Assembly (NCBI RefSeq): GCF_026191185.1
Contig: NZ_JAPHOV010000001.1
Location: forward strand, 2,165,001 to 2,229,000
Length of the DNA: 64,000 nucleotides
Origin: Legionella sp. PATHC032
GTDB lineage: Bacteria > Pseudomonadota > Gammaproteobacteria > Legionellales > Legionellaceae
Direction of reading: 5' to 3'
Both the position numbers and the translations under genes were made by a program. The notes under the pieces were generated by a model. The model saw only the letters and a list, made by a program, of their open reading frames with translations, was not told where the DNA came from and did no database searches. Shown here one piece after another: positions 33,756 to 51,397 of the stretch. Positions within the stretch are counted from its first letter, which is position 1; every line of letters begins with the position of its first letter.

Positions 33756-34630
33756 AATGGCAAATTCCCGCTAAAACATTTTTATTAGGAGAATACGCTG
33801 CCATTGCGGGAGAACCGGCTATCCTCTTAACGACGAGTCCTTATTTTACTCTTACATTAACCGACAATGCAAAATTAGAAGGAATTCATTCAGAGTCACC
33901 TGCTGGATTATGGTGGCAAAAAAATTGGTATCCTCCCTTTGGCCTATCCTGGCAAGATCCTTATCAAGGCCAAGGTGGCCTGGGAGCATCCAGTGCTCAA
34001 TTTTTAGCCTGTTATTTGGCAACTTGTTTACTGCAAAAGATTCCCCCTCAACTAAACCATATGCTTGAGGCCTATTATCAATCGTCCTGGTCAGGTTTTG
34101 GATTAAGGCCAAGTGGTTATGATGTGATTGCTCAGTCACAGCAAGGTTGTGTTTACATTAATAAACAAAAAAATCAGGTTGATTCTTTCCCATGGCCATT
34201 TAAAGATTTATCGTTCTTGATCATTCACACAGGCAACAAACTGGCAACACATCATCATCTTAAAGAAGCCACCCTACCTTCTCAAATAGATTACCTGGCT
34301 TCCTTGGTTGTCAAAGCAAAAGAGGCTTTTGATTTAGCTCATAGCCATCATTTAATCCAATGTATTAACTTATATGCTCAAAAACTGTCAGAATTAAATC
34401 TGGTGAATCAACATAGTCTAGCTCTTATCCAGTCTATAAAATCTTATCCAGAAGTCTTGGCAATAAAGGGCTGTGGCGCTTTGGGAGCTGATACATTATT
34501 AATTCTTGCCGATAAAAGAGACTTACAATCCCTCAAAGATAAAGTTCAAGATCAAAACTGGTCAATTTTAGCTACAGAAAATAATCTAACTACCAGGAAC
34601 AATAATATCTTGCTTGAAAAAAGCATATAA
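33752..34630 (+). CDS. GHMP kinase, probably phosphomevalonate kinase
   Basis: A 292-residue kinase of the GHMP fold, with PAKTFLLGEYAAIAGEPAIL at the N-terminus (pattern of mevalonate-type kinases), the ATP loop QGGLGASSAQFLACY near residue 75, and a C-terminal IKGCGALGADTLLIL. With mevalonate kinase at 21247 and decarboxylase at 22115, the remaining step is the phosphorylation of phosphomevalonate, so this is the likely job; it is an inference by elimination and position. It overlaps HMG-CoA reductase by 4 nt (ATGA). Confidence 0.72.
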   Translation: MKWQIPAKTFLLGEYAAIAGEPAILLTTSPYFTLTLTDNAKLEGIHSESPAGLWWQKNWYPPFGLSWQDPYQGQGGLGASSAQFLACYLATCLLQKIPPQLNHMLEAYYQSSWSGFGLRPSGYDVIAQSQQGCVYINKQKNQVDSFPWPFKDLSFLIIHTGNKLATHHHLKEATLPSQIDYLASLVVKAKEAFDLAHSHHLIQCINLYAQKLSELNLVNQHSLALIQSIKSYPEVLAIKGCGALGADTLLILADKRDLQSLKDKVQDQNWSILATENNLTTRNNNILLEKSI

Positions 34631-34674
34631 ATAACACATCTTGTTTGTTAAACAAAAATAATCTCTAAAAAGAC

Positions 34675-34702
34675 TTGAAATTCTGCTCTAATCCGGTATG
34701 AT
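34675..34702 (+). promoter_or_regulatory. Sigma-70 promoter of the tRNA genes
   Basis: TTGAAA (34675-34680) and TATGAT (34697-34702) are separated by 16 nt and lie 13 nt before the first tRNA-Lys. Both boxes are one base from consensus, as expected for a strong tRNA promoter. Confidence 0.7.
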
Positions 34703-34715
34703 TTCAGCCTCTTCA

Positions 34716-34791
34716 GGGCCGTTAGCTCAGGTGGTAGAGCAGGAGGCTTTTAACCTCTGTGTCATAGGTTCGAATCCTATACGGCCCACCA
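34716..34791 (+). tRNA. tRNA-Lys (anticodon TTT)
   Basis: A 76-nt cloverleaf: GGGCCGT acceptor strand paired with ACGGCCC, anticodon loop CTTTTAA with anticodon TTT, T loop GGTTCGAATCC and an encoded CCA end. It is the first of two near-identical copies. Confidence 0.97.
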
Positions 34792-34846
34792 GTTTTTAAT
34801 AAACTTATACCATCAACTATTGTATTTTGCTGGTTATACCCTGAAA

Positions 34847-34922
34847 GGGCCGTTAGCTCAGGTGGTAGAGCAGGAGGCTTTTAACCTCTGTGTCATAGGT
34901 TCGAATCCTATACGGCCCACCA
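34847..34922 (+). tRNA. tRNA-Lys (anticodon TTT), second copy
   Basis: Identical over all 76 nt to the copy at 34716-34791, with encoded CCA. The 55-nt spacer between the two copies is unrelated to the sequence flanking the pair, so this is a tandem duplication of the gene itself. Confidence 0.97.
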
Positions 34923-34983
34923 TTCTGGTCTCCCTCCTGTATCAGACAGACCAGAAATATAAAATGATCATCCACACCCCATT

Positions 34984-35060
34984 GCGCTCGTAGCTCAGCT
35001 GGATAGAGTACTTGGCTTCGAACCAAGGTGTCGGGGGTTCGAGTCCCTCCGAGCGCGCCA
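34984..35060 (+). tRNA. tRNA-Arg (anticodon TCG), probable attachment site
   Basis: A 77-nt cloverleaf with acceptor strand GCGCTCG, anticodon loop CTTCGAA (anticodon TCG), T arm GGGGGTTCGAGTCCCTC and encoded CCA. An integrase gene ends 65 bp beyond its 3' end, so this tRNA's 3' half is the probable integration target. No second copy of that half was found elsewhere in the window. Confidence 0.95.
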
Positions 35061-35125
35061 TTTAAAATCAAGCACTTAGCTCTAGTTTGTGTCCAAAAAA
35101 CCAAGTTACTGTGACCAAAACGTGT

Positions 35126-36100
35126 CTAAACACGTTCAGCCGCAGCTCTGAGATGTGCACTTGAAAGGTGTGCATACCGCAACACCATTTCATAATTAGA
35201 CCACCCACCGAGTTGTTGTAGCTCATGTAAAGGTGTACCATTTTGCACATGCCAACTTGCCCAAGTATGGCGTAAATCATGCCAACGAAAATCATTAATA
35301 CCTGCACGTATTAATGCCTTTTGCCAAGCGTGGTTATTACAACGAGTTACCGGATTTCCATTGTATGTAAATACATACGTTGAATTCCTTCCCTGCTGTG
35401 CTTTTAAAATTGAGATTGCTTGTTTGTTTAACGGTACTGGTATGGGGCGCTTGGATTTAGATTCATCAGCATGTATGAGCGCATGCTTTTTATCTAAATT
35501 TATTTCGCTCCATTTCAATTGCGTTACATTAGACTCTCTAAGACCTGTTGCTAATGTGAAAGAAGCCATTGCCTCTAAATGAGGAGGTAATTCTTTCAAA
35601 AGCAAATTAGCTTCTTCCTTCGTTAACCAACGGATGCGTTTATTCTCAATTTTTCGCATCCTAATAATAGGAGTCTTATCAAGCCAACCCCACTCTTTAT
35701 GAGCGCGATTTAAAATTGCACGAACCAATTCCAAAACCCTATTAACAGTGGTTAAGGAAACATGCTCTGCTTCCTTCTTCTTAGCAATAAACTCAATTAA
35801 ATCTCTGTCAATATCAGAAAGTTTTTTTGCTCTTAAAAAGGAATCTAACCATGCCAGATGGTATTTATCTGTTTCCAGACTACGCTTATGAGACGATTCA
35901 TCAATCCACCTCAATACCGCATCCATCCAGGTTCTATTCGGCAATGACTTAATTTTATCGGTTTGCCACAATTCATGCTTCAGTTGATCATGTAACCGCA
36001 GCGCATCTTCTCTTATTTCAGTCCCAGTACTTTTGCGTACTCTTTTTCCTTGGTGCCTGATATCAAGCCACCAAACTCCATCTCTTTTGTAGAGTGCCAT
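35126..36100 (-). CDS. Tyrosine recombinase (phage/island integrase)
   Basis: A 324-residue integrase. An N-terminal arm-binding part (about 1-60) precedes a SAM-like core-binding domain (60-150) and the catalytic domain, where the active residues are Arg188 (TGLRESN), His274 and Arg277 (HDLRHTW), Trp300 (GGWSNYE) and Tyr309 (RYAHL). All key positions are present, so the enzyme may be active. It reads toward tRNA-Arg and is overlapped at its start by the excisionase-like gene. Confidence 0.93.
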   Translation of the reverse strand: MALYKRDGVWWLDIRHQGKRVRKSTGTEIREDALRLHDQLKHELWQTDKIKSLPNRTWMDAVLRWIDESSHKRSLETDKYHLAWLDSFLRAKKLSDIDRDLIEFIAKKKEAEHVSLTTVNRVLELVRAILNRAHKEWGWLDKTPIIRMRKIENKRIRWLTKEEANLLLKELPPHLEAMASFTLATGLRESNVTQLKWSEINLDKKHALIHADESKSKRPIPVPLNKQAISILKAQQGRNSTYVFTYNGNPVTRCNNHAWQKALIRAGINDFRWHDLRHTWASWHVQNGTPLHELQQLGGWSNYEMVLRYAHLSSAHLRAAAERV

Positions 36101-36306
36101 TCTTTATTACTCCTAACATAAGCACCCTGCGAAGCGTCGCAAGTAGAGTACTTGTTTCTAATATGCATCACAAGATCTTGTTCTATAAATATCCATCTTC
36201 GGCCAATTTTGACGCCTGGTAGCTGGCCATTCGCAGCCATGCGCCTAAGGCTTTCTTTATGTACACCTAAAAATTGTGAGGCCTGCAAAATATTCATTGT
36301 TTTCAT
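36013..36306 (-). CDS. Excisionase-like helix-turn-helix protein
   Basis: A 97-residue protein beginning with a winged-helix/MerR-type DNA-binding motif (ILQASQFLGVHKESLRRMAA, then VKIGRRWIFIEQDL), which matches the Xis/AlpA-type DNA-binding domain used to control excision. The rest (about 52-97) is unstructured and its last 30 codons overlap the integrase start in another frame. Start choices are ATG at 36306 or 36297. An 88-nt overlap suggests coupled expression with the integrase. Confidence 0.78.
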   Translation of the reverse strand: MKTMNILQASQFLGVHKESLRRMAANGQLPGVKIGRRWIFIEQDLVMHIRNKYSTCDASQGAYVRSNKEWHSTKEMEFGGLISGTKEKEYAKVLGLK

Positions 36307-36518
36307 AAGGCAATCCTTACGCTTGATAAAAGTAATTAATGGATAGCTTTTGAGTAAAATCAGATGTCTGATGTTGGCACTTTAATTTAGATCGATTTCT
36401 AAAATTATGTGATAGAAATTTAACGCACTGGGTTTGTGAATATAGCCTAACCTTTATAATAAATAACTTCTGCTCAATAAAATATTTGATCATCTCAACT
36501 CCTGTAATACTTACATCA

Positions 36519-36539
36519 AAATACTCGTTTCGAGTATTT
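36519..36539. promoter_or_regulatory. Perfect palindrome between xis and the peptide operon
   Basis: Arms AAATACTCG and CGAGTATTT flank a TTT spacer. It sits in the 336-bp gap between the divergent xis/int pair and the peptide operon. Flanking direct repeats TTACATCAAAAT (36511) and TTACATCATAAT (36541) lie on either side. It looks like an operator for a dimeric repressor controlling one or both transcription units. Confidence 0.55.
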
Positions 36540-36642
36540 ATTACATCATAATGAGCATATCAGTGCAAATACTTTTTTTGGCTATACCTATAAGAATTTT
36601 ATTTGTACAATGGCTATCAAAGTTTAATAAAAGGTACATCAA

Positions 36643-36828
36643 ATGAGTTTAATGGAAGAACTTGAAGCCGCTGTAGGAAATGAGTATTTGATAAGCCACA
36701 AAAATTTATTGTTAAACACTAATCAAAATACACAGAGGCAGGCTCACTCTAATAAAATAGTCTCGATACAAAGACAGTATCAGCCTGATAGCAATAAGAT
36801 AGTTAATATAAAGCGAGTTAATGCATAA
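36643..36828 (+). CDS. Candidate borosin-type RiPP precursor peptide
   Basis: A 61-residue peptide with AAAGG ribosome-binding site eight bases before the ATG. The N-terminal part (1-29) is acidic then amphipathic (MSLMEELEAAVGNEYL). The C-terminal part holds a repeat: SNKIVSIQR (36-44) and SNKIVNIKR (50-58), separated by QYQPD. Its stop overlaps the start of the methyltransferase gene by 8 nt, so the two are coupled. RiPP precursors commonly have a leader or binding part and repeated core segments; the hydrophobic KIV-I positions would suit backbone N-methylation. Function is inferred from the partner enzyme; no similarity to a known precursor was found by eye. Confidence 0.72.
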   Translation: MSLMEELEAAVGNEYLISHKNLLLNTNQNTQRQAHSNKIVSIQRQYQPDSNKIVNIKRVNA

Positions 36829-37597
36829 ACTTATAGTAGTAGGGTCGGGAATAAAGTCGATTTCTCATCTGACCGAAGAAACTAAACGGGTTATTCAAAG
36901 TGCCGATAAGGTACTCTACCTCATTAATGAAGATAACCTAAAACAATGGATTCAACGAGAAACGAAAAATTCTGAATCGTTGGATTCTATCTACTTTAGT
37001 AGCGAAAAACGAATTGAAGCGTATCAGGCACTAACAACTCATATCATTGAAGAATATAAAAAGGTTTCCATTTTATGCGTTGTATTTTACGGCCACCCTA
37101 CCGTTTTTGCAGACTCTGCACTTAATGCCGTTAGACAAATTAAACAGGATAATGGCGAAGCAATTATTTTACCTGCAGTATCCTCCCAAGACTGCTTGTT
37201 TAGTGATCTAGAAATTGATCCAGGCGATCAGGGATGTTTTTCAATTGAAGCCACAGAGCTGGTATTATTTGAACGGTGCATTGATATTCACGCGCATTTA
37301 ATACTTTGTCAGGTAGCAAATTTTGGTAGAACTGATGGAAAAAAAACTAGCAGTCTATCAATTTTAAAAGATTATCTAAGTGGCTACTATCCAGCAGATT
37401 ACTCCATTTGTCTTTATGAGGCGCCCTCCCTTCCTACTTACCCTCCCCGAATAGAATGGATACAACTTCGTAATCTCGAGCTATCAGCTATTTCTTCAAT
37501 AACAACAGTATATATTCCGCCGATCGAAAAAAAGGCAATTAGCAAAAAGTACCTGAAATTACTCGATTTGAAAATTGATGATTTAGCCTTGAGTTGA
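36821..37597 (+). CDS. Borosin-type peptide backbone alpha-N-methyltransferase (split form)
   Basis: A 258-residue protein of the tetrapyrrole-methylase fold, starting with the SAM-binding LIVVGSGIKSISHLT. It matches fungal OphMA, recalled from memory: R64 and Y68 in KRIEAY have the spacing of catalytic Arg72/Tyr76, VVFYGHPTVF matches OphMA's FYGHPGVF, and LPAVSSQDCLFSDLEIDP matches LPGVSAEDCLFADLCIDP. IHAHLILCQV and a C-terminal TTVYIPP also match. Fungal enzymes carry their core peptide at the C-terminus; here the protein stops after the catalytic domain, so the substrate must be separate, presumably the upstream 61-residue peptide. This argues against a role in cobalamin or heme synthesis. 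It overlaps the convergent GNAT gene by 15 nt. Confidence 0.88.
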   Translation: MHKLIVVGSGIKSISHLTEETKRVIQSADKVLYLINEDNLKQWIQRETKNSESLDSIYFSSEKRIEAYQALTTHIIEEYKKVSILCVVFYGHPTVFADSALNAVRQIKQDNGEAIILPAVSSQDCLFSDLEIDPGDQGCFSIEATELVLFERCIDIHAHLILCQVANFGRTDGKKTSSLSILKDYLSGYYPADYSICLYEAPSLPTYPPRIEWIQLRNLELSAISSITTVYIPPIEKKAISKKYLKLLDLKIDDLALS

Positions 37598-38140
37598 TAA
37601 ATACTCTGATCGTTTTAATCTATACAACACATGCCCCATTAAAGGGCTACCTGAGGTTACTTTAGGGTTATCAAAATTATCTTCTGAATTGGTATATAAT
37701 CCGATCTTTTGCATTACTCGAATAGACGGCTTATTTAATTCGGATGTAAATGAGACAACTTCATCCAAATCTAGTTTCCTAAAAGCATAATCAAGGACTG
37801 CTTTGGCGGCCTCTGTTGCATAGCCTTGGTTCCAGTGTTTTGAAGATAAACGCCAACCAATTTCAATCGCAGGAGTAAAATGAGCTTGAAATGTTGCAGT
37901 AAATAAACCGACAAAACCTATCATCTCACCGGTATTTTTAATTTCAACAGCATATAGCGAGAAATTCTTTTCTTCTTGATGAGAGATGATTCTATCTATG
38001 AATGCAATAGTTTCTTCTCGCGTAGGTATGGCTGGAAAAAACTGCATTACTTTTTGGTCTTGGCTAATGGCAATTAAGGATTCCACATCATTTTCTTGAA
38101 AAGTCCGCAGAAATAATCGTTCTGTTTCTAATATTCTCAT
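37583..38140 (-). CDS. GNAT acetyltransferase, RimJ/RimL-like
   Basis: A 185-residue N-acetyltransferase with the N-terminal ILETERLFLRTFQEND and the acetyl-CoA binding stretch WNQGYATEAAKAVLDYAF (near residue 105), followed by LNKPSIRVMQKIGL. RimJ/RimL relatives acetylate protein N-termini or small molecules. It converges with the methyltransferase gene, overlapping at the 3' ends, and lies 10 bp from the next gene on the same strand, so it may belong to the same island. A role in peptide modification is possible but not shown. Confidence 0.87.
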   Translation of the reverse strand: MRILETERLFLRTFQENDVESLIAISQDQKVMQFFPAIPTREETIAFIDRIISHQEEKNFSLYAVEIKNTGEMIGFVGLFTATFQAHFTPAIEIGWRLSSKHWNQGYATEAAKAVLDYAFRKLDLDEVVSFTSELNKPSIRVMQKIGLYTNSEDNFDNPKVTSGSPLMGHVLYRLKRSEYLSTQG

Positions 38141-38150
38141 CTATATAGCC

Positions 38151-39494
38151 TTATTGTTTGCTTAATCTAACGCAACCTCTAAATAACTTCGCATCGCTGG
38201 CAAATTGCGTTTTATCGCTACAATAGGAAAAAGCAAATCTGTTATCAGTACCTTCTAATTCTTCAGAACTATTAATGTTCTTATTACTAGAAGATTTATA
38301 ATGGTAAAAAGAAAATTCCGTTTGTTTACTTACATGGTAAAGCAGACTTCCAAAAGCGGAACTATTATCTGCGGTAAACTCCGACTGATAAGCCAGCAGC
38401 ACATTTTTTAGCATTTCCAGTTCACTATAAGCGCTATTGCTTTGATTGGTTTTAAATGTATTAATCTTGGCAAAAGGACACTGTAAGGGATAGTAAACAC
38501 TATCAGACTGACCATTCAAAGCTGACGGCACCATTACTGTCGCTGTGTATTCTAAGTCATAACATTCATTATAAATTTTCTGAATTGTTTTAACTGGGAA
38601 GTATTGCTCATCAATTGCTGGCTTCACACCAATACCCGATCCCATACAAATATTAAAAATGTATTTTGCTGTATCCATGATGAATGGTGTAGGTCTGAAA
38701 CGATTAATACTCTTGGCGCTGAGAAATAAATCGTTACAAGAAGCATCATAGGTATTTTGAGTCAGTTTTTTTCTTAACGACTCCGAGAAATATAATTTCA
38801 GTTTAAGCCATTTATCATTATGTTTAACTTCATTGATAAACTGCTCAGAAAAATAAAGAATCTCGCTATACCAGTTATCAATAGTATTTTTATCCTTCAA
38901 TATCTCTTTAAATACTAGATAATGCTCATAAGGTGATTTAGGTGCCGGAGCAGCGACATTAAAATATTTCTGAATTCTCGCATGCTTCCTTTTACAACCA
39001 ATATTCGGCAATAAAAAAGATGAAAGTGCACCAGAAGAAACAGACAGCACATTATTATCTACAGTCTGATCCTCGTCAAAAATAACCTGCATATTAAAAA
39101 TTGCACCAGGTCCCTGAACACAGTCTGGAAAGATGCGTTCATCTTCACCAAAATAATGCCACTCGCAAAACTTATCCAATATTAAGCCCAAGGGTAGACT
39201 ATTTTTACCATACCCAAGATGATTGAATAATTCATTATCTGTGTGCTTGCTGTCAATCTTTTCCATTTGACCGCTGCTTGTCGGCAGATAGGCATGATTT
39301 TTAATGCCAAAATGTTCACCAAATTTAAATCGAGCTATAAAGAAAGGGATTGTATTGCCCGGTTTAATTTCTTCAATGACATGATATATGGATTCGTTAA
39401 CTTGCTTTACTTGATACTTGATTTCATCCCATGAAACTCTACTAATTTTGTTCATTCCTAAACACCCATACAACAATTGAATATCAATTATCAT
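38151..39494 (-). CDS. Unrecognised 447-residue protein
   Basis: Not recognised. The protein is rich in Asn, Tyr, Phe and Ser, has no clear signal peptide or membrane helix, and is soluble. Features include PGNTIPFFIARFKFGEHFG near 45-65, VQGPGAIFNMQVIFDE near 125-140, RFRPTPFIMDTAKYIFN near 265-285 and a Cys-containing tail (FSYCSDKTQFASDAKLFRGC). A second in-frame ATG at 39455 is preceded by GGGTG and may be the real start, giving 434 residues. It lies upstream of the GNAT gene on the same strand and divergent from the peptide transporter. It could tailor, bind or resist the borosin product; nothing proves this. Confidence 0.6.
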   Translation of the reverse strand: MIIDIQLLYGCLGMNKISRVSWDEIKYQVKQVNESIYHVIEEIKPGNTIPFFIARFKFGEHFGIKNHAYLPTSSGQMEKIDSKHTDNELFNHLGYGKNSLPLGLILDKFCEWHYFGEDERIFPDCVQGPGAIFNMQVIFDEDQTVDNNVLSVSSGALSSFLLPNIGCKRKHARIQKYFNVAAPAPKSPYEHYLVFKEILKDKNTIDNWYSEILYFSEQFINEVKHNDKWLKLKLYFSESLRKKLTQNTYDASCNDLFLSAKSINRFRPTPFIMDTAKYIFNICMGSGIGVKPAIDEQYFPVKTIQKIYNECYDLEYTATVMVPSALNGQSDSVYYPLQCPFAKINTFKTNQSNSAYSELEMLKNVLLAYQSEFTADNSSAFGSLLYHVSKQTEFSFYHYKSSSNKNINSSEELEGTDNRFAFSYCSDKTQFASDAKLFRGCVRLSKQ

Positions 39495-39584
39495 CCCTTG
39501 AAAATCAGGATAATTGTAGAAAGGGATTAAGTTTATCCATTTTTAATGGTAGAGTCACCTTCCAAATAGTTTTAGGGAAAAAAT

Positions 39585-41066
39585 ATGTTGTCACCAGAAA
39601 AAATGCCAAAAGGAATCATGCCCCTGTATTTAATACAGGCATTTTCAACCTTCTCTTATGCAATTCTGTATTCCTCATTATCTCTGTTTCTCACTAAACA
39701 ATTAGGGTTGTCTAATGCTCTTTCAAATAGCATTGTTGGTTTATTTCTCGCATTTAACTATGTTCTGCATTTACTCGGTGGAGTGGTTGGTGGACGATAT
39801 CTAAGTAACCGAGCCTTATTTTTGATTACCACAACCATACAAACGATTGGTATTTTACTTTTGGCGCTTTCAGTTAAGTCGTTGCTTTATCTTGGACTGA
39901 GTTTATTTCTGGTAGGATGTGGCTTAAACACTACTGCATACAACAGCATACTGACACAACGCTTTGCACCGGATGATAACCGCAGAGATAAAGCCTTTTT
40001 CTTGAGCTACTCCTATATGAATGTAGGCTTCTGCGCTGGCTATATCATAAGCGGCTTTTTTGATTACTCCAATCAATATCAAACACTACTCTATGCCAGC
40101 ATAATTCCAAACGTAATCACTCTTTTGCTTATGTGGGGTTATTGGTCGAACTTGAATGATCGCGATACTCCTTTAATTAAAGTTACAAATAAAGCTTCCC
40201 TGAATTTAAAAAAATCTTTTGGCTGGGGAATTATATTAGCTCTTATCCCATTCACCTTACTTTGTTTTCATAAAGCCCAGTTCAGTAATGGGGTTGTAGT
40301 AGGCCTCAGCGTTATTATGCTTTTTGTCATTTTATACCTTGGCTACCAACAAAAATCGACTTTGGATAAGCAAAAGATTATGACTTTTCTAATCCTGACA
40401 GTAACATCAATTCTATTCTGGATGATCTACTTCACAGGCCCTATGGGCGTAACTCTGTTCATTAAAAACAATGTCGATAAACACCTCTTCCATTATGAAA
40501 TGGCGACCCAATGGATTTTGAATATCAATGCCATCGTAATCATTATAGGCGCCCCATTATTATCAATAGTATTAACGCGGCTGCAGGCAAAAGGATACAA
40601 TGTATCAGTAACCAAACAATTTATCTGGGCCTTTCTGATACTAGCAGGCTCCTTCTTTTTGTTATCCAGCAGTATACTCTCTGCCAATAAGCATGGCTAT
40701 GTTAGTGTTTATTGGGTGATGCTCCATTTTACTACTCAAGCAATTGCGGAGTTACTCATAGGACCAGTAGGCTACGCCATGATCGGCAGAATTTCCCCAC
40801 CGCAATTACAAGGCGTGCTTATGGGCACTTGGATGATGGTCTCAGGCGTATCAGCATCGTTATCACATTATTTTTCTAATGCCATGACTAAAGAGGAGTC
40901 CACAAATCCATTGCTATCCAATGGTGATTACCAGCATGTGTTTAATCAGCTAGGTATCTGGGCACTATTGGGCGCTGTTTTCCTTTACTTGATTGCGAAA
41001 AGAATCAAGCCTGTTATTGAGCAGAAAACAGATTCAGGGTTATCGGAGACTATAACAGCCGCATAA
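39585..41066 (+). CDS. POT/PTR family proton-dependent oligopeptide transporter
   Basis: A 493-residue inner-membrane protein with about 14 helices. Early motifs GGVVGGRYLSNR and LVGCGLNTTAYNSIL fit POT family members (E. coli DtpA/B), although the usual ExxERFxYY in helix 1 is not seen (the equivalent reads FSTFSYAILYSSLSLFL). Family members import di- and tripeptides with protons; here it might take up or export modified peptides, a guess based on its place near the peptide operon. SD AGGGAA precedes the ATG. Confidence 0.82.
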   Translation: MLSPEKMPKGIMPLYLIQAFSTFSYAILYSSLSLFLTKQLGLSNALSNSIVGLFLAFNYVLHLLGGVVGGRYLSNRALFLITTTIQTIGILLLALSVKSLLYLGLSLFLVGCGLNTTAYNSILTQRFAPDDNRRDKAFFLSYSYMNVGFCAGYIISGFFDYSNQYQTLLYASIIPNVITLLLMWGYWSNLNDRDTPLIKVTNKASLNLKKSFGWGIILALIPFTLLCFHKAQFSNGVVVGLSVIMLFVILYLGYQQKSTLDKQKIMTFLILTVTSILFWMIYFTGPMGVTLFIKNNVDKHLFHYEMATQWILNINAIVIIIGAPLLSIVLTRLQAKGYNVSVTKQFIWAFLILAGSFFLLSSSILSANKHGYVSVYWVMLHFTTQAIAELLIGPVGYAMIGRISPPQLQGVLMGTWMMVSGVSASLSHYFSNAMTKEESTNPLLSNGDYQHVFNQLGIWALLGAVFLYLIAKRIKPVIEQKTDSGLSETITAA

Positions 41067-41227
41067 AAAAGGGCATCAAACAATAATAATTGATATCAAA
41101 TAAATCAAAATTGCATTTTACCTCTGATATTTTCCATGTAAAAAAACTAATTTTATCGATATTACAGCTATGGTTTACTGTTTTTCGAATGGACTATGCC
41201 GTAATAATATGAAAGTGAGGTTGTTAC

Positions 41228-41470
41228 ATGGAATGTTTTATCGAGGTTGCAGAACCTGTAATTGATGTTAAGTTTCAATTAAAAAAAGATACTCAGAAAT
41301 ATCTGATTGATTACATTCTGTCCTACAGTGAGTTGGACTGTAAACAACTAGCCCAAATACTTAAAGCCAGCCCACTGGTGCTTAGCCAGGTATTGGCGGG
41401 AAAAGAGTTTTTAGGATCTGCGAAGGCACGCAACTTATTTCATTATTTCACCATGCTGATTGGGCATTAA
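41228..41470 (+). CDS. Small unrecognised protein with possible helix-turn-helix
   Basis: An 80-residue protein with good GAGG site at eight bases. Residues 40-80 (LDCKQLAQILKASPLVLSQVLAGKEF) resemble a lambda-repressor or Cro-type helix-turn-helix, so it may be a small DNA-binding regulator. The N-terminal 25 residues are beta-rich. No toxin partner is next to it. It may belong to the island. Assignment is tentative. Confidence 0.5.
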   Translation: MECFIEVAEPVIDVKFQLKKDTQKYLIDYILSYSELDCKQLAQILKASPLVLSQVLAGKEFLGSAKARNLFHYFTMLIGH

Positions 41471-41694
41471 CGCTTTTAATTTCTGCCAATCAAGATCTGT
41501 TCTATGGTCTTAGATACCTTGATGGACAGATCCACCCATCAAATAAATCAAGATTGATACACTATGTCCATAATGATACTTACAAATTAATTAATCATGA
41601 TAAATTGGTTAGCACAAGCAGGCCTTAAACCTTTTTAGCCGGTGTGATCTAGTTTTCGTATTGCAAAAATGATCTAAATTTCAGGGGTCGTGTT

Positions 41695-41853
41695 TTAATC
41701 TTTGATAAGCTTCAAACAAAATATAGCCCCACCTATGGAATCTAAAATGATAGAAAATAATCCACTCCAACCAATCAAGTCATCGTTGAACAGTATACAA
41801 GAAATAACAAAAAGTGCAGGAAATCCTACTTTGAGACTTGGAAAAGTGTGCAC
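41695..41853 (-). pseudogene. Possible remnant of a membrane transporter gene
   Basis: On the minus strand a reading frame opens at a GTG at 41853 and runs 52 codons to a stop at 41695. The product is hydrophobic: LKVGFPALFVISCILF, then DDLIGWSGLFSIILDSIGGAIF. This looks like two helices of a small-molecule exporter (DMT/EamA-like) without its N-terminal part. It lies in a 436-bp gap otherwise without genes. Weak evidence, could be chance. Confidence 0.3.
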
Positions 41854-41906
41854 TCATTGGTAGTCAGGTATTTATTTTGCGCGCCAAGTCCTCTCATCTG
41901 CTTTAC

Positions 41907-42647
41907 CTACATATATTGCCCACCATTAATATCCAGATTAGCGCCTGTAATAAATCCTGATTCAGAAGATGCTAAGAAAGCCACAGCCTTTGCAATTTCT
42001 TGAGGCTTACCTAAACGCCCTATGGGAATGTTGGCAATAATAGACTTTAATACATCTTCTCTCATGGCAGAAAGCATAGGGGTTTCGATGTAGCCTGGGG
42101 AGATAGTATTCACAGTAATTCCCTTATTAGCTACTTCCAATGCCAGACTTTTACTAAATCCAAATAAACCGGCTTTGGTCGCCGCGTAATTGCACTGTCC
42201 GAACTGGCCCTTGCGACCATTAATTGATGAAATGCTAATAATTCGCCCATAACCTTTATCCAGCATGGCCGGTAACACATTACGCGTCATATTAAACACG
42301 CTGGTTAAGTTCGCATCAACAACCTGCTGCCATTGCTCAAGTGTCATTTTTTTGAGAGTCGTATCACAAGTAATACCAGCATTATTCACCAAGACGTCGA
42401 TACGTCCATAGCGCTCCATGACCAATTCCGTGAACTTTTCACAATCAGCAAAATGTGTGGTATCCGCATAAAGGATATCAACATCAAAACCCGCTTCTTT
42501 TTGAGTAGCTTGCCACCGTTTTGCTTCCTCATGTTGCCCATTTTTAAAATAACAAGCAATGACTTGATAATCGGCGGCCAGATGTTGGCATATGGCCGTA
42601 CCTATTCCGCCCGTACCTCCTGTTACAACCGCTGTCATTCGTTCCAT
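41907..42647 (-). CDS. phbB: Acetoacetyl-CoA reductase (short-chain dehydrogenase)
   Basis: NADPH-dependent reduction of acetoacetyl-CoA to (R)-3-hydroxybutyryl-CoA for polyhydroxybutyrate. The 246-residue protein has the cofactor loop TGGTGGIG (residues 9-16), NNAGI, the catalytic Ser in SISSINGRKGQFGQ and the YAATK (Tyr-x3-Lys) pair. The FGQCNY stretch is typical of PhbB. An AGGAG site precedes the ATG. The PHA synthase gene lies about 14 kb downstream in the same window. Confidence 0.9.
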   Translation of the reverse strand: MERMTAVVTGGTGGIGTAICQHLAADYQVIACYFKNGQHEEAKRWQATQKEAGFDVDILYADTTHFADCEKFTELVMERYGRIDVLVNNAGITCDTTLKKMTLEQWQQVVDANLTSVFNMTRNVLPAMLDKGYGRIISISSINGRKGQFGQCNYAATKAGLFGFSKSLALEVANKGITVNTISPGYIETPMLSAMREDVLKSIIANIPIGRLGKPQEIAKAVAFLASSESGFITGANLDINGGQYM

Positions 42648-42703
42648 AAATGACTCCTATAGTTTGTATGGTTATGAGTTTTTTTGATAAGAATTCATTG
42701 ACT

Positions 42704-42910
42704 TTAAACGATTTCGACTTCCTCGGCGTGTGGGCCTTTTTATCCTTGACCTACTTTAAATAAAACGCGTGCTCCATCAGGAAGGTTTTTAAAGCCATTG
42801 CCTTGAATGGCACTGAAGTGAACAAAATAATCTTTGCCATTACTTTCAATAAAGCCAAATCCTTTGGCTTTATTGAACCATTTTACTTTTCCACGTACTT
42901 TGTCTGCCAT
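42704..42910 (-). pseudogene. Cold-shock protein gene with premature stop
   Basis: CspA-type OB-fold protein starting [20 protein letters not shown] (RNP1 KGFGFI, RNP2 VHFSAI), with AGGAGG before the ATG at 42910. The frame stops with TAA at 42740-42742 after VLFKVGQG. Directly after the stop the same frame continues KGPHAEEVEIV to a second stop at 42704, exactly the usual CSP ending. The gene has therefore lost its last dozen residues through one nonsense codon. The truncated 56-residue protein keeps both RNA-binding motifs but lacks the final beta strand. Confidence 0.75.
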
Positions 42911-43083
42911 ATCGGTTGTCCCTCCTGATAAGAGTCTATAGTTTAACACTTTTTTATCGGTTTGACAGATGAATGAATCATCGAATCAATATAGAAAATA
43001 TTGGCTTATTTTAATCATTGTTGGTCAATAAGTAATACAATTAAAAGAAAGGGAGTTAATAGGTTCTAGTGCAGGGTCAATCA

Positions 43084-43278
43084 ATGAGTGAGCATTATAC
43101 GGCGAAAATTTATTGTGGCACTGAGGAAATTGCCCGTCAATCCGGTGAAAACCTGGAGCAATTATATGTGTGGATTTTAGCCTATGCGGAGAAAACTTAT
43201 GGGGAAATCCATGGAGAAATTACGGATAAAATAAGTCATCAAGTGGTTAGGCGATTTAAAAAACAATCAATAGAATGA
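43084..43278 (+). CDS. Small unrecognised protein
   Basis: A 64-residue product from the ATG at 43084, preceded by AGGG; a GTG at 43069 is also open. Composition is normal with a predicted alpha/beta mix (EHYTAKIYCGTEEIARQSGENL, WILAYAEKTYGEIHGE). No domain is recognised. It lies between the cold-shock gene and the broken receiver gene. Confidence 0.5.
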   Translation: MSEHYTAKIYCGTEEIARQSGENLEQLYVWILAYAEKTYGEIHGEITDKISHQVVRRFKKQSIE

Positions 43279-43358
43279 TTTAATCAGGCAACAAGAAAAA
43301 CAATATCATTAATCCATACCATGAATCACATCATAGGTTGACTTATACCTGATTTCTT

Positions 43359-43741
43359 TTAATTTAATGTGCTCTTGACATAATTGATAATTTTTAGCGC
43401 ATTGCCCTCACTAAAAGGTTTATAAAAATGACATAAATTTTTTAGTGTGGTATTGACTTTATTCCCAATAGGCGGTTGTTGGGAAGTGATAACAATAATA
43501 GAAGCAATACTATGGGGTTGTTGTTTTTTATAAACGCAATCAAATCATAATCACCCAGTGAGTTGTACAAGTGATTATCAATTAAAAGAGTATCATACGT
43601 TTTAACTGCTATTTTATCGAACATCTCCTCTGCGGTAGTAGCCAGATCAACCAGTTGCCCAAGCTGCATTAATTGACTTCGAATAACAATTCGAGCAGCA
43701 AATGAGGCCTCTACAACAAGAAAGCGGAAAGAATTGTTCAT
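43359..43741 (-). pseudogene. Response-regulator receiver domain broken by a frameshift
   Basis: The ATG at 43741 starts MNNSFRFLVVEASFAARIVIR, a receiver domain with the phosphoacceptor region YDTLLIDNHL. The frame then reads AFIKNN and runs into Leu repeats, stopping at 43442. In the frame reached by restoring one A in the A6 run near 43530, the product continues QQPHSIASIIVITSQQ, then CHFYKPFSEGNALKIINYV with the conserved Lys, to a stop at 43359. That gives about 128 residues, the normal size of a stand-alone receiver. A one-base deletion in a homopolymer therefore disrupts it; an assembly error or phase variation is possible. Confidence 0.72.
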
Positions 43742-43881
43742 CAAATCCTCATTGTTTGGATAAAACCCTATTTTAAATTATAACCTCCCTATTTCATGCC
43801 TTGCTAAGCTCAATAAGAAAAAAGATTGCAAGCACCCAAAATTCTTGATCAAAAAAACTCACCGAGTCAATAAATTGAAAA

Positions 43882-44346
43882 CTAATTAAAATGCTCCGTT
43901 TTTTGTTTCAAATAATAAGTATGAAGCTGATTCAAAAGTTTTTGCAATTTGTCCAAATGGCGTTGGGTAGTTTTTTTATCGTTAGCATTGCTGCTCTTAA
44001 TCAGGTCGGGGATCAAGTGACTGATAGCATCGATGTGACTTTGTATGTTTTTTAATTGTTTTGGGGATAAATCCTGACTTAATCCCGGTAAGGCATTGAT
44101 TAAATCAAGAATAACAAAGGCATGTTGACGCACCTCACTTAACCGATTCATTTCAAGATCTTTGTAAATGGCAAGACTATACTCATCCATCTCTTGTAAT
44201 AGTTCTGGTACTGTCGCAGGAATAGTCACCTTTGATGCAGGTTGTTCACTTGCCATGGTATGCGATATTGAGATTAAAAAAAGTAGTATTACTTTGGATA
44301 ATAATTTGTTGATACGCGAATTAAAATTAAGATACCTAATGGCCAT
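43882..44346 (-). CDS. Small periplasmic protein, paralogue of the one at 60660
   Basis: A 154-residue protein with a membrane or signal segment (about 15-32, ending SHTMA). It shares a pattern with the product at 60660-61112: TIPATVPELLQEMDEYS against TTIPAIWEAINQHTAAI, HAFVILDLINALPGLSQDLS against HAFAIRDLVKALPDLSKNLS, LKNIQSHIDAIS against LKNLKQNVGYTEQL, and SSNANDKKTTQRHLDKLQKLL against TGDANDKEGTQANWQKLQKVL. Both lie next to metal-efflux gene clusters, suggesting a metal-related periplasmic family. The ATG at 44346 has AAAGGA before it and was preferred over an upstream start. Confidence 0.65.
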   Translation of the reverse strand: MAIRYLNFNSRINKLLSKVILLFLISISHTMASEQPASKVTIPATVPELLQEMDEYSLAIYKDLEMNRLSEVRQHAFVILDLINALPGLSQDLSPKQLKNIQSHIDAISHLIPDLIKSSNANDKKTTQRHLDKLQKLLNQLHTYYLKQKTEHFN

Positions 44347-44655
44347 GGTCTTTCCTTTGATTTTTATCATTCTGTTGTTTTGATTCACTCATCTTCAATT
44401 TCTAAAACATTATAGACCTTTAAGAGGGAGTTTGAAGCCCAGGGGACAAAAACGTACACTAAAGATCTAATGGTTATTCCAGTATAAAAACATGATTGAG
44501 TTATTACTGTAACCTGAATAAAGAATTATCATTGACTTTGGCAATATGCGAAGAATAGTCGATACAGGGGCAAGAAGACATCAAAAGTAATGCGCCATAC
44601 TTACTACTTGTACTCAAATCAATGACCACTACATATCCCATATAAGAATATCAAA

Positions 44656-44766
44656 TTAATGTAATTGAAATGACGCGCCATGTAAAAAAATAGCCAATAT
44701 AGCAAGGGAAATAATTAAAATCATGTAAAAACGTGTCGTTTTCTTCTTTTTTCGAAAATAAATCAT
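44656..44766 (-). CDS. Tiny membrane protein (36 residues)
   Basis: Reads MIYFRKKKKTTRFYMILIIS followed by LAILAIFLHGASFQLH. It has a basic start and one membrane helix. Its ATG overlaps the stop of the preceding tiny frame (ATGA), implying coupled translation. The gap from 44389 to 44841 has no other gene; I saw no clear promoter. Confidence 0.4.
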   Translation of the reverse strand: MIYFRKKKKTTRFYMILIISLAILAIFLHGASFQLH

Positions 44767-44819
44767 GAAACAATAATCAACACCCACAGAGCACCTATAA
44801 TCCATGCCTTCATTTCCAT
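44763..44819 (-). CDS. Tiny hydrophobic peptide (18 residues)
   Basis: MEMKAWIIGALWVLIIVS preceded by AGGG at six bases; a second ATG lies at 44813. It is coupled to the next frame by the ATGA overlap and could be a leader for it. Membrane-active or regulatory role unknown. Confidence 0.35.
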   Translation of the reverse strand: MEMKAWIIGALWVLIIVS

Positions 44820-44841
44820 GCTTACCCTGTTGCGTTATTGA

Positions 44842-45006
44842 TTATTGATTTGGATGCCTATGCTCCCCATCGCCACCAAAGCCCCCTTCATACCCACTCT
44901 CAGGATGCACTTCTTTAGAAGTCGTTGTCTTAGTGCATGCAGTCAATCCATATCCTAAACAAAACATTCCGATCAAAAAGAAAATCTTAAGCCCTCGAGT
45001 ATTCAT
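44842..45006 (-). CDS. Small lipoprotein
   Basis: A 54-residue precursor from the ATG at 45006, with GGAGAAGT before it. The signal peptide ends in the lipobox LTAC and the mature part is short, Gly/Glu/His-rich (GYEGGFGGDGEHRHPNQ). A His-containing tail next to a cadmium/zinc ATPase suggests a metal-binding or sensing role, but this is only context. Confidence 0.6.
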   Translation of the reverse strand: MNTRGLKIFFLIGMFCLGYGLTACTKTTTSKEVHPESGYEGGFGGDGEHRHPNQ

Positions 45007-45136
45007 TACTTCTCCTGTTTCCAAATAAAAAGCTGCTCAATCCATCATAACATATTGAATCATTGATTGTTATCTCACCAAATGAATACAAACAATAGCT
45101 ATGTGTCCTTCTTGTACTTAACTTCTTATCACTAGG

Positions 45137-47290
45137 CTATATTTCCTGAATTTCAGAATGTCCTTGATGCGAATTCAATAATCGCAATCCATTCACAACC
45201 ACAATCAAACTCGCTCCCATGTCTGCAAACACTGCCATCCAAAGAGTTGCGATGCCCGCAAGTGCCAAAAAGAAAAAAATCCCTTTGATTGCAATGGATA
45301 AGCTAATGTTTTGACGAAGAATCCGTGCTGTGTTGCGACTTAAATCAATGTACAAAGGAAGCATCGCCAAATTGTCATTCATCAAGGCCACATCCGCTGT
45401 TTCCAATGCGGTATCTGTTCCTTTGCCCATTGCAAAACTAACAGTTGCTTTGGCCAAAGCAGGCGCATCATTAATTCCATCACCAACCATTCCTACCGCT
45501 TTATATTGCTCTATGAGAAAATCAATGGCCTGGAGTTTATCCGTAGGCAAAACATTCGCTTTCACTTCATCAATACCCACTTGCTTGGCAATCGCATGAG
45601 CAGTCACCGCATTATCTCCTGTTAACATGGCTGTTTTTATCCCTTGTTGGTGAAGCCTTGCAATCGCCCATTGGCTGGTTGTGCGAAGCGTGTCGGCGAC
45701 TGCAAAAACAGCCAATACAGTGGAGCTGTTGCTTAAGATAACGGTGGTTTTTCCTTCCTCTTCTAATCGTTTGAGTGCTTGTTCTATCGCAGAATTACAG
45801 ACTTGATTGTCTTCAGCCAATTGATGATTGCCTATGTAATAAAGTTCTTGCTGAACCAGTCCTTTCACACCTCGCCCAGGAAGAGCAAAGAATTCCTCCA
45901 CATCCAGCAAGGAACTATTGGATTGTTCTTGTTGCCAATACGTCACTAAAGCATGAGCCACAGGATGTTCGGAGTGACTATCCAGGCTTGCAGCCAACAA
46001 TAACAGTTGCTCTTTGGTTTGGCTCTTATCATAAACAATAAAATCAGTCACAATTGGTTTGCCTTCTGTTAAAGTACCTGTTTTATCCAATGCGATTAAT
46101 TTTAATCGATAACCTGTCTCTAAATAGCTCCCTCCCTTAATAAGAAGTCCATGTTTTGCAGCAGCAGCCAATCCACTCACAACGGTCACCGGCGTTGAAA
46201 TGACTAAAGCACAAGGGCAAGCAATCACCAGCAAAGTTAACGCCTTATAGAGCCAGTCATAAAAAGGATAACCCAATGCCAATGGAGGGAACAGTGCAAT
46301 AAGAACTGCTATCAAGACCATGATGGGTGTGTAATACTTGGCAAATTGGTCCACAAAACGTTGAGTTGGCGCCCGTTCAGCCTGCGCTTGTTCAATGGCC
46401 TTACCAATTTTAGCAAGCAGCGTATCTCCTGATGCTTTTGTGACCTGGACCTCAAAAGCACCATGCTCATTTAAACTACCTGCAAAAACCTCATCCCCTA
46501 CTTGTTTGACTACTGGCATGGACTCACCTGTAATCGGCGCTTGATTGACGGTACTTTGCCCCGAAATCACTACTCCATCCAAGGGAATTCGCTCACCCGG
46601 CCTTACCCTGAAAACAGCCTCTAGTGGTACCTCTTCTACCGGCATGGTTTGCCATTGACCATTGTCCATTTTAACTCGAGCCACTTCCGGAGCAATTTGC
46701 ATCAAACTTCGAATAGCTAATCGCGCTTTATCTAACGAATAACGCTCGATACGCTCAGCCAAAGCAAACAACACGGTAACCATCGCAGCCTCAGGCCACT
46801 CGCCTATCAATACAGCACCACTGATTGCAATCAACATCAAACTGTTAATATTCATGGCTTTGGTGCGCAAAGCAAGCCAACCTTTTTTGAAAGTAGGTGA
46901 ACCACTTAAGACCATAGCCAATAAGGCAGGGATAATACTCCAGGTGGATTGCTCTGTGCCTAAAAAATAAGCCGCCAATTCGGAAAAAAGAGCGAAAACA
47001 CCAGCTAAAATAATGAGTAGCCAAGACGAATCAGAAAGAGACCTCCCTCCTTCTTTTGCTGGATGGATGCCGCTTTTAGAACGCACACTCATTCCTAATG
47101 CTGCAATACGTTGTTGCAACAAATCTATGGAAGAAAGACGATGGTGAATAGTCACTTCTTCAGCAATGAAATTAAAATCCAAATGTTCAATTTCAGGAAT
47201 GCCCTGTAATTGTCGTCGAATCAGTTGCTCTTCTGCAGGACAATCCAGTCCTGCCACAAAAAACGTTGTTAACCTTAAAGGCGTTGTCAT
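45137..47290 (-). CDS. cadA: Zn/Cd/Pb-transporting P-type ATPase (CadA/ZntA-like)
   Basis: A 717-residue P1B-type ATPase exporting Zn, Cd or Pb from the cytoplasm. An N-terminal metal-binding domain carries GLDCPAEEQLI, a CPxEE variant of the usual CxxC. The membrane core has TGES, CPC (in IACPCALVIS, near residue 370), DKTGTLTEG (phosphorylated Asp), SEHPVAHAL and GDGINDAPAL. The ATG at 47290 overlaps the end of the zinc-ribbon gene by 4 nt and was preferred over an upstream start at 47353. It is the last gene of the arsR-type operon. Confidence 0.92.
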   Translation of the reverse strand: MTTPLRLTTFFVAGLDCPAEEQLIRRQLQGIPEIEHLDFNFIAEEVTIHHRLSSIDLLQQRIAALGMSVRSKSGIHPAKEGGRSLSDSSWLLIILAGVFALFSELAAYFLGTEQSTWSIIPALLAMVLSGSPTFKKGWLALRTKAMNINSLMLIAISGAVLIGEWPEAAMVTVLFALAERIERYSLDKARLAIRSLMQIAPEVARVKMDNGQWQTMPVEEVPLEAVFRVRPGERIPLDGVVISGQSTVNQAPITGESMPVVKQVGDEVFAGSLNEHGAFEVQVTKASGDTLLAKIGKAIEQAQAERAPTQRFVDQFAKYYTPIMVLIAVLIALFPPLALGYPFYDWLYKALTLLVIACPCALVISTPVTVVSGLAAAAKHGLLIKGGSYLETGYRLKLIALDKTGTLTEGKPIVTDFIVYDKSQTKEQLLLLAASLDSHSEHPVAHALVTYWQQEQSNSSLLDVEEFFALPGRGVKGLVQQELYYIGNHQLAEDNQVCNSAIEQALKRLEEEGKTTVILSNSSTVLAVFAVADTLRTTSQWAIARLHQQGIKTAMLTGDNAVTAHAIAKQVGIDEVKANVLPTDKLQAIDFLIEQYKAVGMVGDGINDAPALAKATVSFAMGKGTDTALETADVALMNDNLAMLPLYIDLSRNTARILRQNISLSIAIKGIFFFLALAGIATLWMAVFADMGASLIVVVNGLRLLNSHQGHSEIQEI

Positions 47291-51200: not shown

Positions 51201-51397
51201 GTGATGCGCTGCTCCACCTCAAAAGGGGAGTAACCGGAGGCTTGGGTATTAATTTGCACCTGCACGTTGGTAATATCAGGAACCGCGTCAATAGGAAGGC
51301 GCTGGAAGTTATACACACCAAGAATGGCAATGACAAGCGTGAATAACAACACAAACCAGCGATGTTTCAGGGAAAAGCGAATGATTTTTTCAAGCAT
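48239..51397 (-). CDS. Heavy-metal RND efflux pump, inner-membrane subunit (CzcA/HelA-like)
   Basis: A 1052-residue proton-driven exporter of divalent metals. It has 12 membrane helices and two large periplasmic loops. The N-terminus MLEKIIRFSLKHRWFVLL and PDITNVQVQINTQASGYSP are typical. The helix 4 motif reads LDFGLIVDGAVIIVEN, matching the zinc/cobalt/cadmium type (HME1), with the charged Asp and Glu pair. It is last in the operon OMF, MFP, RND. L. pneumophila HelCBA has the same order; whether this is that locus or a paralogue cannot be told here, so no symbol is given. Confidence 0.92.
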   Translation of the reverse strand: MLEKIIRFSLKHRWFVLLFTLVIAILGVYNFQRLPIDAVPDITNVQVQINTQASGYSPFEVEQRITFPIELAMSGLPSLDYTRSLSRYGLSQVTVVFKDGTNIYFARQLINERLQEVKDKLPPGVETTLGPISTGLGEIFMYTVTNKPNVPISQHYNPTELRTIQDWIIKPQLRNVEGVAEVNTIGGYEKQFHITPDPSKLVRYRLSLNDVVEALERNNANVGAGYIETNGEQNLIRVPGQVQNMADIENIVIASFEGTPVRIRDVAEVALGKELRTGAATENSKEVVLGTVFMLMGENSRTVSERVAAKMKDINKTLPEGVEAITVYNRTTLVNATINTVKNNLLEGALLVCVILFLFLGNIRAALITAMVIPLSMLLTITGMVENQISANLMSLGALDFGLIVDGAVIIVENCIKHLAEQQHALHRVLNLEERLKVISYATTEVIRPSIFGVFIITVVYLPILTLTGVEGKMFLPMAQTVIIALLASMLFALTFVPAAVAIFLRGHLQEKENWLVHYLSLGYAKVLRRCFHARRVVISAAVALVVVSLGIAFHLGGEFIPSLDEGDIAMHAMRIPGTSLTQAITMQDLVEKRIRQFSEVKNVFAKLGTAEVATDPMPPNVADTFIILKSRKKWTNPKKTKPGLVQEIESAVQQIPGNNYEFTQPIQMRFNELISGVRSDVAVKVFGDDMDTLLKTAEAISAQLKQVPGAADVKVEQVSGLPLLTVEINRDVLARYGLQIGTVQEAVVIATGGKKGGELFEGDKRFDIVVRLPESLRSDPNVLRQIFIPLPLSKDGEQHFIPLSEVASLIRSESPNQISRENGKRRVVVTANVRNRDLSSFVSEAKKRIDGQVKLPSGYWITWGGQFEQLQSAYQRLQIVVPITLLGIFLLLFISFGKVRDALLVFTGIPLALTGGVFALWLRGIPLSISAGVGFIALSGVAVLNGLVMITFINKLREQKKVYLKDAVLQGSLARLRPVLMTALVASLGFVPMALATGTGSEVQRPLATVVIGGIISSTFLTLLVLPGLYYVFHGRRKKGQSKSEPQEQIM

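Follow-up and report, generated by a model that had tools for sequence, protein, structure and literature searches.

The 64,000-nt stretch of Legionella sp. PATHC032 DNA analyzed here (the window) carries, on its plus strand, two overlapping open reading frames (ORFs) with the makings of a split borosin system. The first encodes a candidate precursor peptide of 61 aa (36643–36828), and the second, which overlaps it by 8 nt, a predicted borosin-type peptide alpha-N-methyltransferase of 258 aa (36821–37597). A tRNA-Arg gene and an integrase gene lie upstream, and genes for a conserved protein, here called p447, and a POT-type transporter lie downstream. An earlier note on this DNA had singled out the overlapping pair with its adjoining integrase and tRNA gene, and this layout is borne out by the sequence and the ORF list. 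Judged from sequence comparison, it is very probable that the genes make up a split borosin-type cluster on a likely integrated mobile element, in which the enzyme is predicted to methylate the backbone of the 61-aa peptide.

The relationship of the enzyme to known borosin methyltransferases is evident over nearly its whole length. In phmmer searches of the PDB it matches dbOphM (6mjf; 7.6e-39), OphMA (6.4e-37 and on), SonM (7ltc; 1.9e-33) and MroMA (1.3e-29), with alignments that cover residues 2–251 of 258 for SonM and 3–249 for dbOphM; at E≤1, the remaining matches are two weak rows (0.015 and 0.041), unrelated, and neither of them a tetrapyrrole enzyme. The catalytic residues are kept as well. 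The substitutions Y58F, R67K, Y71F and Y93F lower the kcat/KM of SonM (with SonA varied) by 14-, 97-, 98- and 1.6-fold, respectively, as given in PMC8429565. These positions align with Y58, R64, Y68 and Y90 of the window enzyme and are invariant, as is YGHP, in 61/61 same-genus homologues with a length of 230 aa or more (a further two, truncated, were dropped). The sequence has every OphMA-type motif that the earlier note had listed: R64/Y68, FYGHP, the SSQDCLFSDLEIDP block and YIPP. Among more distant borosin-type enzymes, two (L153 and L154, in G506 and G308) lie in open frames of ~450 codons and are possibly fused forms.

Is the small upstream ORF a gene, and is it the precursor? It looks like a real gene under purifying selection, because its pN/pS (the ratio of nonsynonymous to synonymous polymorphism) is 0.36 when pooled over 13 distinct clade-A alleles (0.28 for residues 1–32 and 0.45 for residues 33–61), and because the two other frames of the region hold 7–11 stops each. 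Its place is conserved, too. Among the 63 same-genus enzyme loci with a match of at least 450 nt (shorter ones, such as G010:C20, were dropped), 62 have an ORF of at least 43 aa that ends at −38 to +13 nt of the enzyme start; the sole exception is L080, where the enzyme is truncated. (The calling rule made two of the precursors, L004 and L067, 3 residues too short, and the start of L033 is unsure.) Synteny and conservation thus support the precursor split from its enzyme that had been proposed.

The C-terminal half of the peptide has the character of a repeated core. In the window, one copy is AHSNKIVSI (residues 34–42; 36742–36768, plus strand) and the other PDSNKIVNI (residues 48–56; 36784–36810, plus strand), and the best score of an internal self-alignment of the peptide was equaled in 6 of 5000 shuffles, so that the repetition claimed earlier goes beyond chance. 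The precursors of group A, whose enzymes are 77–100% identical to that of the window, are mostly 61 aa long with two cores, while those of group A' (enzymes 59–62% identical) have 45–54 aa and one core of the QPxxNKIVxI type. The precursor of L029 (2639–2821; enzyme 47% identical) has three IAQPN-type repeats, and in groups B and C (enzymes 36–45% identical) the precursors mostly have 57–72 aa, with ends such as LADRTTIFEL, FADMSRVVR or FSDMSHVIPYPDMSHVFPV. The number of core repeats therefore varies from one (as in L024) through two (the window) to three (L029). A common C-terminal pattern, [PASTF][DHN]x[NST]x[IV][VFAI], is found in 57 of the 62 precursors (as AHSNKIV and PDSNKIV in the window), the last copy always lying in the C-terminal half. 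Two of eight enzyme genes from other families of the class have a motif-bearing small ORF just upstream (PDANKVF in G293 and SDVSHVF in G459).

A number of observations weigh against this reading. POT transporters usually import peptides, and export of a product by the one in this cluster is therefore unsure. At L064 and L073, which belong to the 17 clade-A loci, neither p447 nor a transporter is present within ~8 kb downstream. The core pattern matches 52 of 57 distinct precursor sequences, where 500 shuffles gave 1.0 on average and 6 at most, but it was fitted post hoc to the same peptides, which makes the test a lenient one, and the other six of the eight enzyme genes from other families have no motif-bearing ORF of at least 35 aa within 300 nt upstream. 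The enzyme has D55 where dbOphM has Tyr and SonM has Gln. The cores are short and polar (Asn/Lys/Ser), consisting of KIV(S/N)I stretches within polar sequence; in 11 tested pairs, according to a review, methylation was on primarily hydrophobic cores (PMC11285071). Finally, there is the matter of the leader, a point beyond the earlier note. SonA has a leader of 53 residues that forms a five-helix borosin-binding domain (BBD), as described in PMC8429565. In the window peptide the first core is preceded by 33 residues at most, and in the 45-aa relatives (L024 and L025) by ~34; judged by length, the window peptide falls outside the type IV borosins as defined by such a leader. The short- and long-leader groups align over the first ~24 residues only (hhalign probability 40, E 3e-4). 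Neither precursor profile (A4 or A5, the longer-leader one included) matches SonA in the PDB, and because short- and long-leader profiles alike miss it, homology to SonA is not decided by sequence.

A rival reading is that the enzyme is a true backbone N-methyltransferase with another protein or peptide as its target, and that the neighboring peptide is regulatory or inhibitory rather than (only) a substrate. The peptide is too short for a full BBD, its profiles miss SonA, its cores are polar, and six of the eight distant enzyme genes lack such a gene just upstream. On the other hand, all but one of the same-genus loci have a small ORF that reaches the enzyme gene or stops just short of it, the C-terminal motif is common to clades with very different leaders, and the core copies vary in number as they do in multi-core precursors of ribosomally synthesized and post-translationally modified peptides (RiPPs). 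This alternative is accordingly regarded as improbable. It is more improbable still that the cluster is decayed or passive cargo from which no product is made any more. Besides the missing p447 and transporter genes of L064 and L073, such decay might be read from the truncated enzymes of L079 and L080 and from stops inside the matched stretch in some homologues; the window genes, however, are all open, the precursor has the low pN/pS given above, and the cassette and its upstream block are kept across species. Least credible of all is an ordinary PF00590-superfamily methylase, acting on tetrapyrroles or RNA, that happens to lie among unusual neighbors: the sole Pfam family matched by the enzyme is the broad TP_methylase (PF00590; 6.7e-12) and its best NCBIfam match is YabN, far below that family's cut-off, but its PDB matches are borosin enzymes, and the RsmI-like paralogue of the same genome (the one control tested) has none of Y58/R64/Y68/Y90, lacks YGHP, and sits in the enzyme tree at the end of a length-10 branch. 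Cobalamin, siroheme and RNA methylase identities were rejected on these grounds. Clustering with cobalamin or siroheme methylases, which would have spoken against the proposal, is unsupported: at E≤0.001 the genome has three PF00590 genes and no fourth, one of them RsmI-like and two borosin-type (the window gene and C1:2280683–2281426), and the tree contains the one RsmI-like control and no cobalamin or siroheme methylases. It allows only coarse statements, since SonM and dbOphM are on long branches in it and a divergent row, L060, is mislabeled as group A.

The probable split borosin cluster sits at the end of what appears to be a mobile element, and the case for mobility has become stronger than originally claimed, through integrases, tRNA genes, 49-nt repeats and conjugation genes. 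The presumed integration site is the tRNA-Arg (TCG) gene at 34984–35060 (plus strand; ARAGORN), the 3' end of which (35014–35062) is the likely attL. It is followed on the minus strand by the genes for a tyrosine integrase of 324 aa (35126–36100; PF00589, 1.2e-32) and an excisionase-like helix-turn-helix (HTH) protein of 97 aa (36013–36306; PF12728, 1.5e-10; TIGR01764 excise, 2.3e-7). A divergent integrase is found in the same place, 0.56–0.79 kb 5' of the enzyme gene, in 15/15 clade-A loci with at least 80% identity and enough upstream DNA (the window included). L004 has too little upstream DNA to judge, L021 (77% identity) has none in 4 kb, and 3 of 11 A' loci have one; these counts were made with a profile from the integrases of the window and one relative, which could miss other kinds. 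In 11 of the 15 loci the neighboring tRNA gene is tRNA-Met(CAT), not tRNA-Arg(TCG), and the integrase is 27–33% identical to that of the window; no tRNA was found at L062, L064 or L073. At L064, the integrase is 97% identical to the window's, and a 49-nt tRNA-Arg repeat lies beside it. The cassette and its flank have diverged to different extents, the cassette being 92.5% identical to that of L. anisa over 5027 bp, while the flank with the tRNA genes and the integrase shares 69–76% identity with the sequences of six genomes (69.6% in the case of L. anisa).

Where does the element end? Within the window there is neither an exact copy of at least 14 nt of the stretch 34984–35125 nor a second site with at most 3 mismatches to the tRNA-Arg 3' end that could serve as attR. 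A 98% identical repeat of the 49-nt 3' end does occur 75.4 kb further on, outside the window, at G000:C1:2275402–2275450 (110402–110450 in window numbering). Between the two repeats lie genes for a relaxase (PF03432, 1.4e-34), a coupling protein (PF02534, 4.1e-132) and VirB11- (PF00437, 9.4e-37), TrbE- (PF03135, 7.7e-27) and TrbI-type proteins (PF03743, 1e-59). With an integrase at a tRNA gene, flanking direct repeats, and a relaxase, a coupling protein and type IV secretion ATPases between them, the ~75.4-kb stretch is, by gene content, likely an integrative conjugative element, presumably capable of transfer, with the cassette at its left end. At least one gene of its cargo is for RND-type efflux (48239–51397; PF00873), and several other large ORFs in 45000–64321 resemble transport proteins by their look.

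The sequence from 2275402 onward is 99.99% identical over 7599 bp to the stretch directly after the same tRNA gene in L. anisa (G001) and 87.5–98.9% identical in four more genomes; in a sixth (G044) it is found in two pieces, of 80.6% and 97.7% identity. An integrase gene (PF00589, 4.1e-29) lies just 3' of the repeat. The window element thus precedes a second integrase-bearing element. This second element carries a further borosin locus, of clade C, and the near identity of its 7.6 kb to L. anisa suggests that it passed from one species to another very recently. Two longer copies of the tRNA-Arg 3' end start at 2339597 and 2344634, so that there are repeats 5 kb apart at G000:C1:2339597–2344692 (L133), and these probably mean that more elements are part of the same tandem array.

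The earlier note had described a pathway of two genes, and here the pair itself stands, but the extent does not: the cluster also holds p447, the POT transporter and often a GNAT gene. The conserved cassette common to the clade-A relatives spans ~5.2 kb (36493–41657). Its left edge is at 36493 in 13 of the 15 relatives compared (36573 in L021 and 36451 in L064), and its right edge is at 41656–41657 in seven and at 41468–41517 in five; the homology ends before 38000 in L064 and L073 and at 41464 in L021. Ahead of the precursor gene lies a block (36580–36613, plus strand) strongly conserved among 17 clade-A rows that may act as a promoter. About 100 nt 5' of the precursor gene, a 9-3-9 palindrome, AAATACTCG-TTT-CGAGTATTT (36519–36539), has paired arm changes in some clade-A relatives and mismatches in others and is missing in L021; it is a candidate binding site (operator) for some regulator. 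Beyond the enzyme gene come the GNAT acetyltransferase (37583–38140, minus strand; PF13302, 8.7e-37), which is optional and occurs in 9 of 17 clade-A loci, the window included and one partial, then p447 (38151–39494, minus strand), the 493-aa POT/PTR2-family transporter (39585–41066, plus strand; PF00854, 6.9e-20; TIGR00924, 1.1e-50) and an 80-aa protein (41228–41470, plus strand) that matches no family but whose homologues occupy the corresponding position at many loci of clades A and A'. No peptidase was recognized in the cluster, and no RNA element in 34000–42000 beyond three tRNAs. A defense system was considered and rejected, as the one match of a PADLOC model among five proteins scanned was to the excisionase-like HTH protein.

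A conserved partner is p447. Its start, going by the family, is most likely the ATG at 39455; nothing in Pfam or NCBIfam scores above cut-off, and its AlphaFold2 (AF2) model has a pLDDT of 90. A homologue is present in 54 of the 63 methyltransferase loci, convergent with the enzyme gene in every one except L060; of the nine loci without a match, two have less than 1 kb of downstream sequence, and in two the enzyme is truncated. An MFS-like ORF separates the enzyme gene from p447 in most B and C loci, and 49 of the 63 loci have an ORF with at least 8 hydropathy-predicted spans in the interval from −5 to +6 kb. The family is also found elsewhere. The 69-kb second contig of the genome, which is similar to conjugative Legionella plasmids, has a p447 homologue adjoining ATP-grasp, ThiF and YcaO genes (G000:C2:1174–6055; L134), likely a second RiPP-type cluster. 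In other Gammaproteobacteria, p447 relatives adjoin a recurring class-I methyltransferase (L160, L162–L164, L169, L174, L177, L182 and L188), with a POT transporter in four of these nine loci.

The system is not rare in the genus, and the same genome holds a second, divergent one. Homologues of the enzyme occur in 33 of 45 same-genus genomes (E≤1e-5), in 47 of 143 genomes of the order (E≤1e-10) and, by profile search at E≤1e-20, in 10 of 369 genomes from a class-wide sample. Thirteen loci of the window's clade have named hosts: Legionella anisa, quinlivanii, sp. PC1000, bononiensis, saoudiensis, quateirensis, jamestowniensis, shakespearei, gratiana and santicrucis, Fluoribacter gormanii and two metagenome-assembled genomes. 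Where such proteins are named, among the best 120 of 216, they are annotated as SAM-dependent methyltransferase, methylase, tetrapyrrole methylase or similar. A phage origin was rejected, there being no match for the gene in 50,697 phage records, and none of the 33 viral stretches that fit a pattern encodes a relative. A plasmid gene was likewise rejected: the 14 matching plasmid records are all below 60% identity (one is from Legionella israelensis, at 31%), and a near-mode search with 35100–47000 of the window gave no plasmid. More than 1600 pathways are reported to have been described (Imani 2022). As to the suggestion that such a pathway was new to the genus, no paper joining Legionella with borosin or omphalotin was found in the literature searched; the two main surveys of bacterial borosins (Imani 2022, Cho 2022) are outside that search. 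The papers that link backbone N-methylation with Legionella deal, by title, with a drug-delivery assay and with MNIO enzymes. Beyond the earlier note, the analysis adds the larger extent of the cluster, the integrative element, a second system in the genome and the shortness of the leader.

How might the system work? The enzyme would bind the peptide, which has a gene of its own, by its short N-terminal leader, with the N-terminal helix MSLMEELEAAVGNEYL as the recognition handle, and, using S-adenosylmethionine (SAM), would methylate backbone amides in the two C-terminal SNKIV-type cores. By analogy with SonM, the beta-branched KIV(S/N)I stretches may be threaded past Y58/R64/Y68. A host protease would most likely cut the product from its leader, and the POT-type transporter would most likely move it across the inner membrane, p447 being a putative conserved accessory or regulatory protein. 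The cassette as a whole would travel in integrase-borne elements aimed at tRNA genes. A more far-reaching scheme is offered tentatively, and is itself rather doubtful: that there is a mobile family of split borosins in Legionella and its relatives in which the binding domain has shrunk to one ~20-residue helix, and in which the product is handled by an undescribed p447 family (one half, residues ~10–238, perhaps like a cyclic-nucleotide domain of the CRP/FNR sensor type, and one half without a good fold match). This family would accompany POT/MFS transporters as a shared partner in several methyltransferase and YcaO/ThiF clusters that are unrelated to one another. Backbone N-methylation is known for making peptides stable and membrane-permeable. 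If the split borosin reading is true, ribosomal backbone N-methylation is carried on conjugative-type elements moving among Legionella species, and natural precursors of down to 45 residues would offer a minimal leader useful for engineering. The p447 family, widespread and uncharacterized, is a testable lead.

Among known systems, a close one is SonM–SonA, a split borosin of type IV from Shewanella oneidensis (PMC8429565), which likewise consists of a separate ~260-aa methyltransferase and a short precursor; the enzymes are homologous over their full length and have the same active-site residues. SonA, on the other hand, has one core behind its 53-residue leader, whereas the window peptide has two, and its gene overlaps that of the enzyme. 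The window pair has p447, the POT transporter and the integrase as neighbors. With the fused fungal borosins, OphMA and dbOphMA, the likeness is in the methyltransferase domain, including R-x3-Y and YGHP; their core forms the C-terminal end of the methyltransferase chain itself, whereas in the window it is in a separate upstream gene. The architecture is also like that of the "Class 4" borosins, as far as the legend to Figure 1 of PMC11395268 describes them, with enzyme and core separate and no BBD identified. A further comparison is within the same genome. The clade-C system (enzyme at G000:C1:2280683–2281426; L051 and L124) has a precursor, a methyltransferase, an MFS transporter and a p447 homologue, as in the window's type of cluster, a duplicated core (DMSHVIP/DMSHVFP), and a place behind a tRNA-Arg repeat and integrase. 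It differs in its enzyme, which is 38% identical, in its 72-aa precursor with a longer leader, and in its transporter type and gene order.
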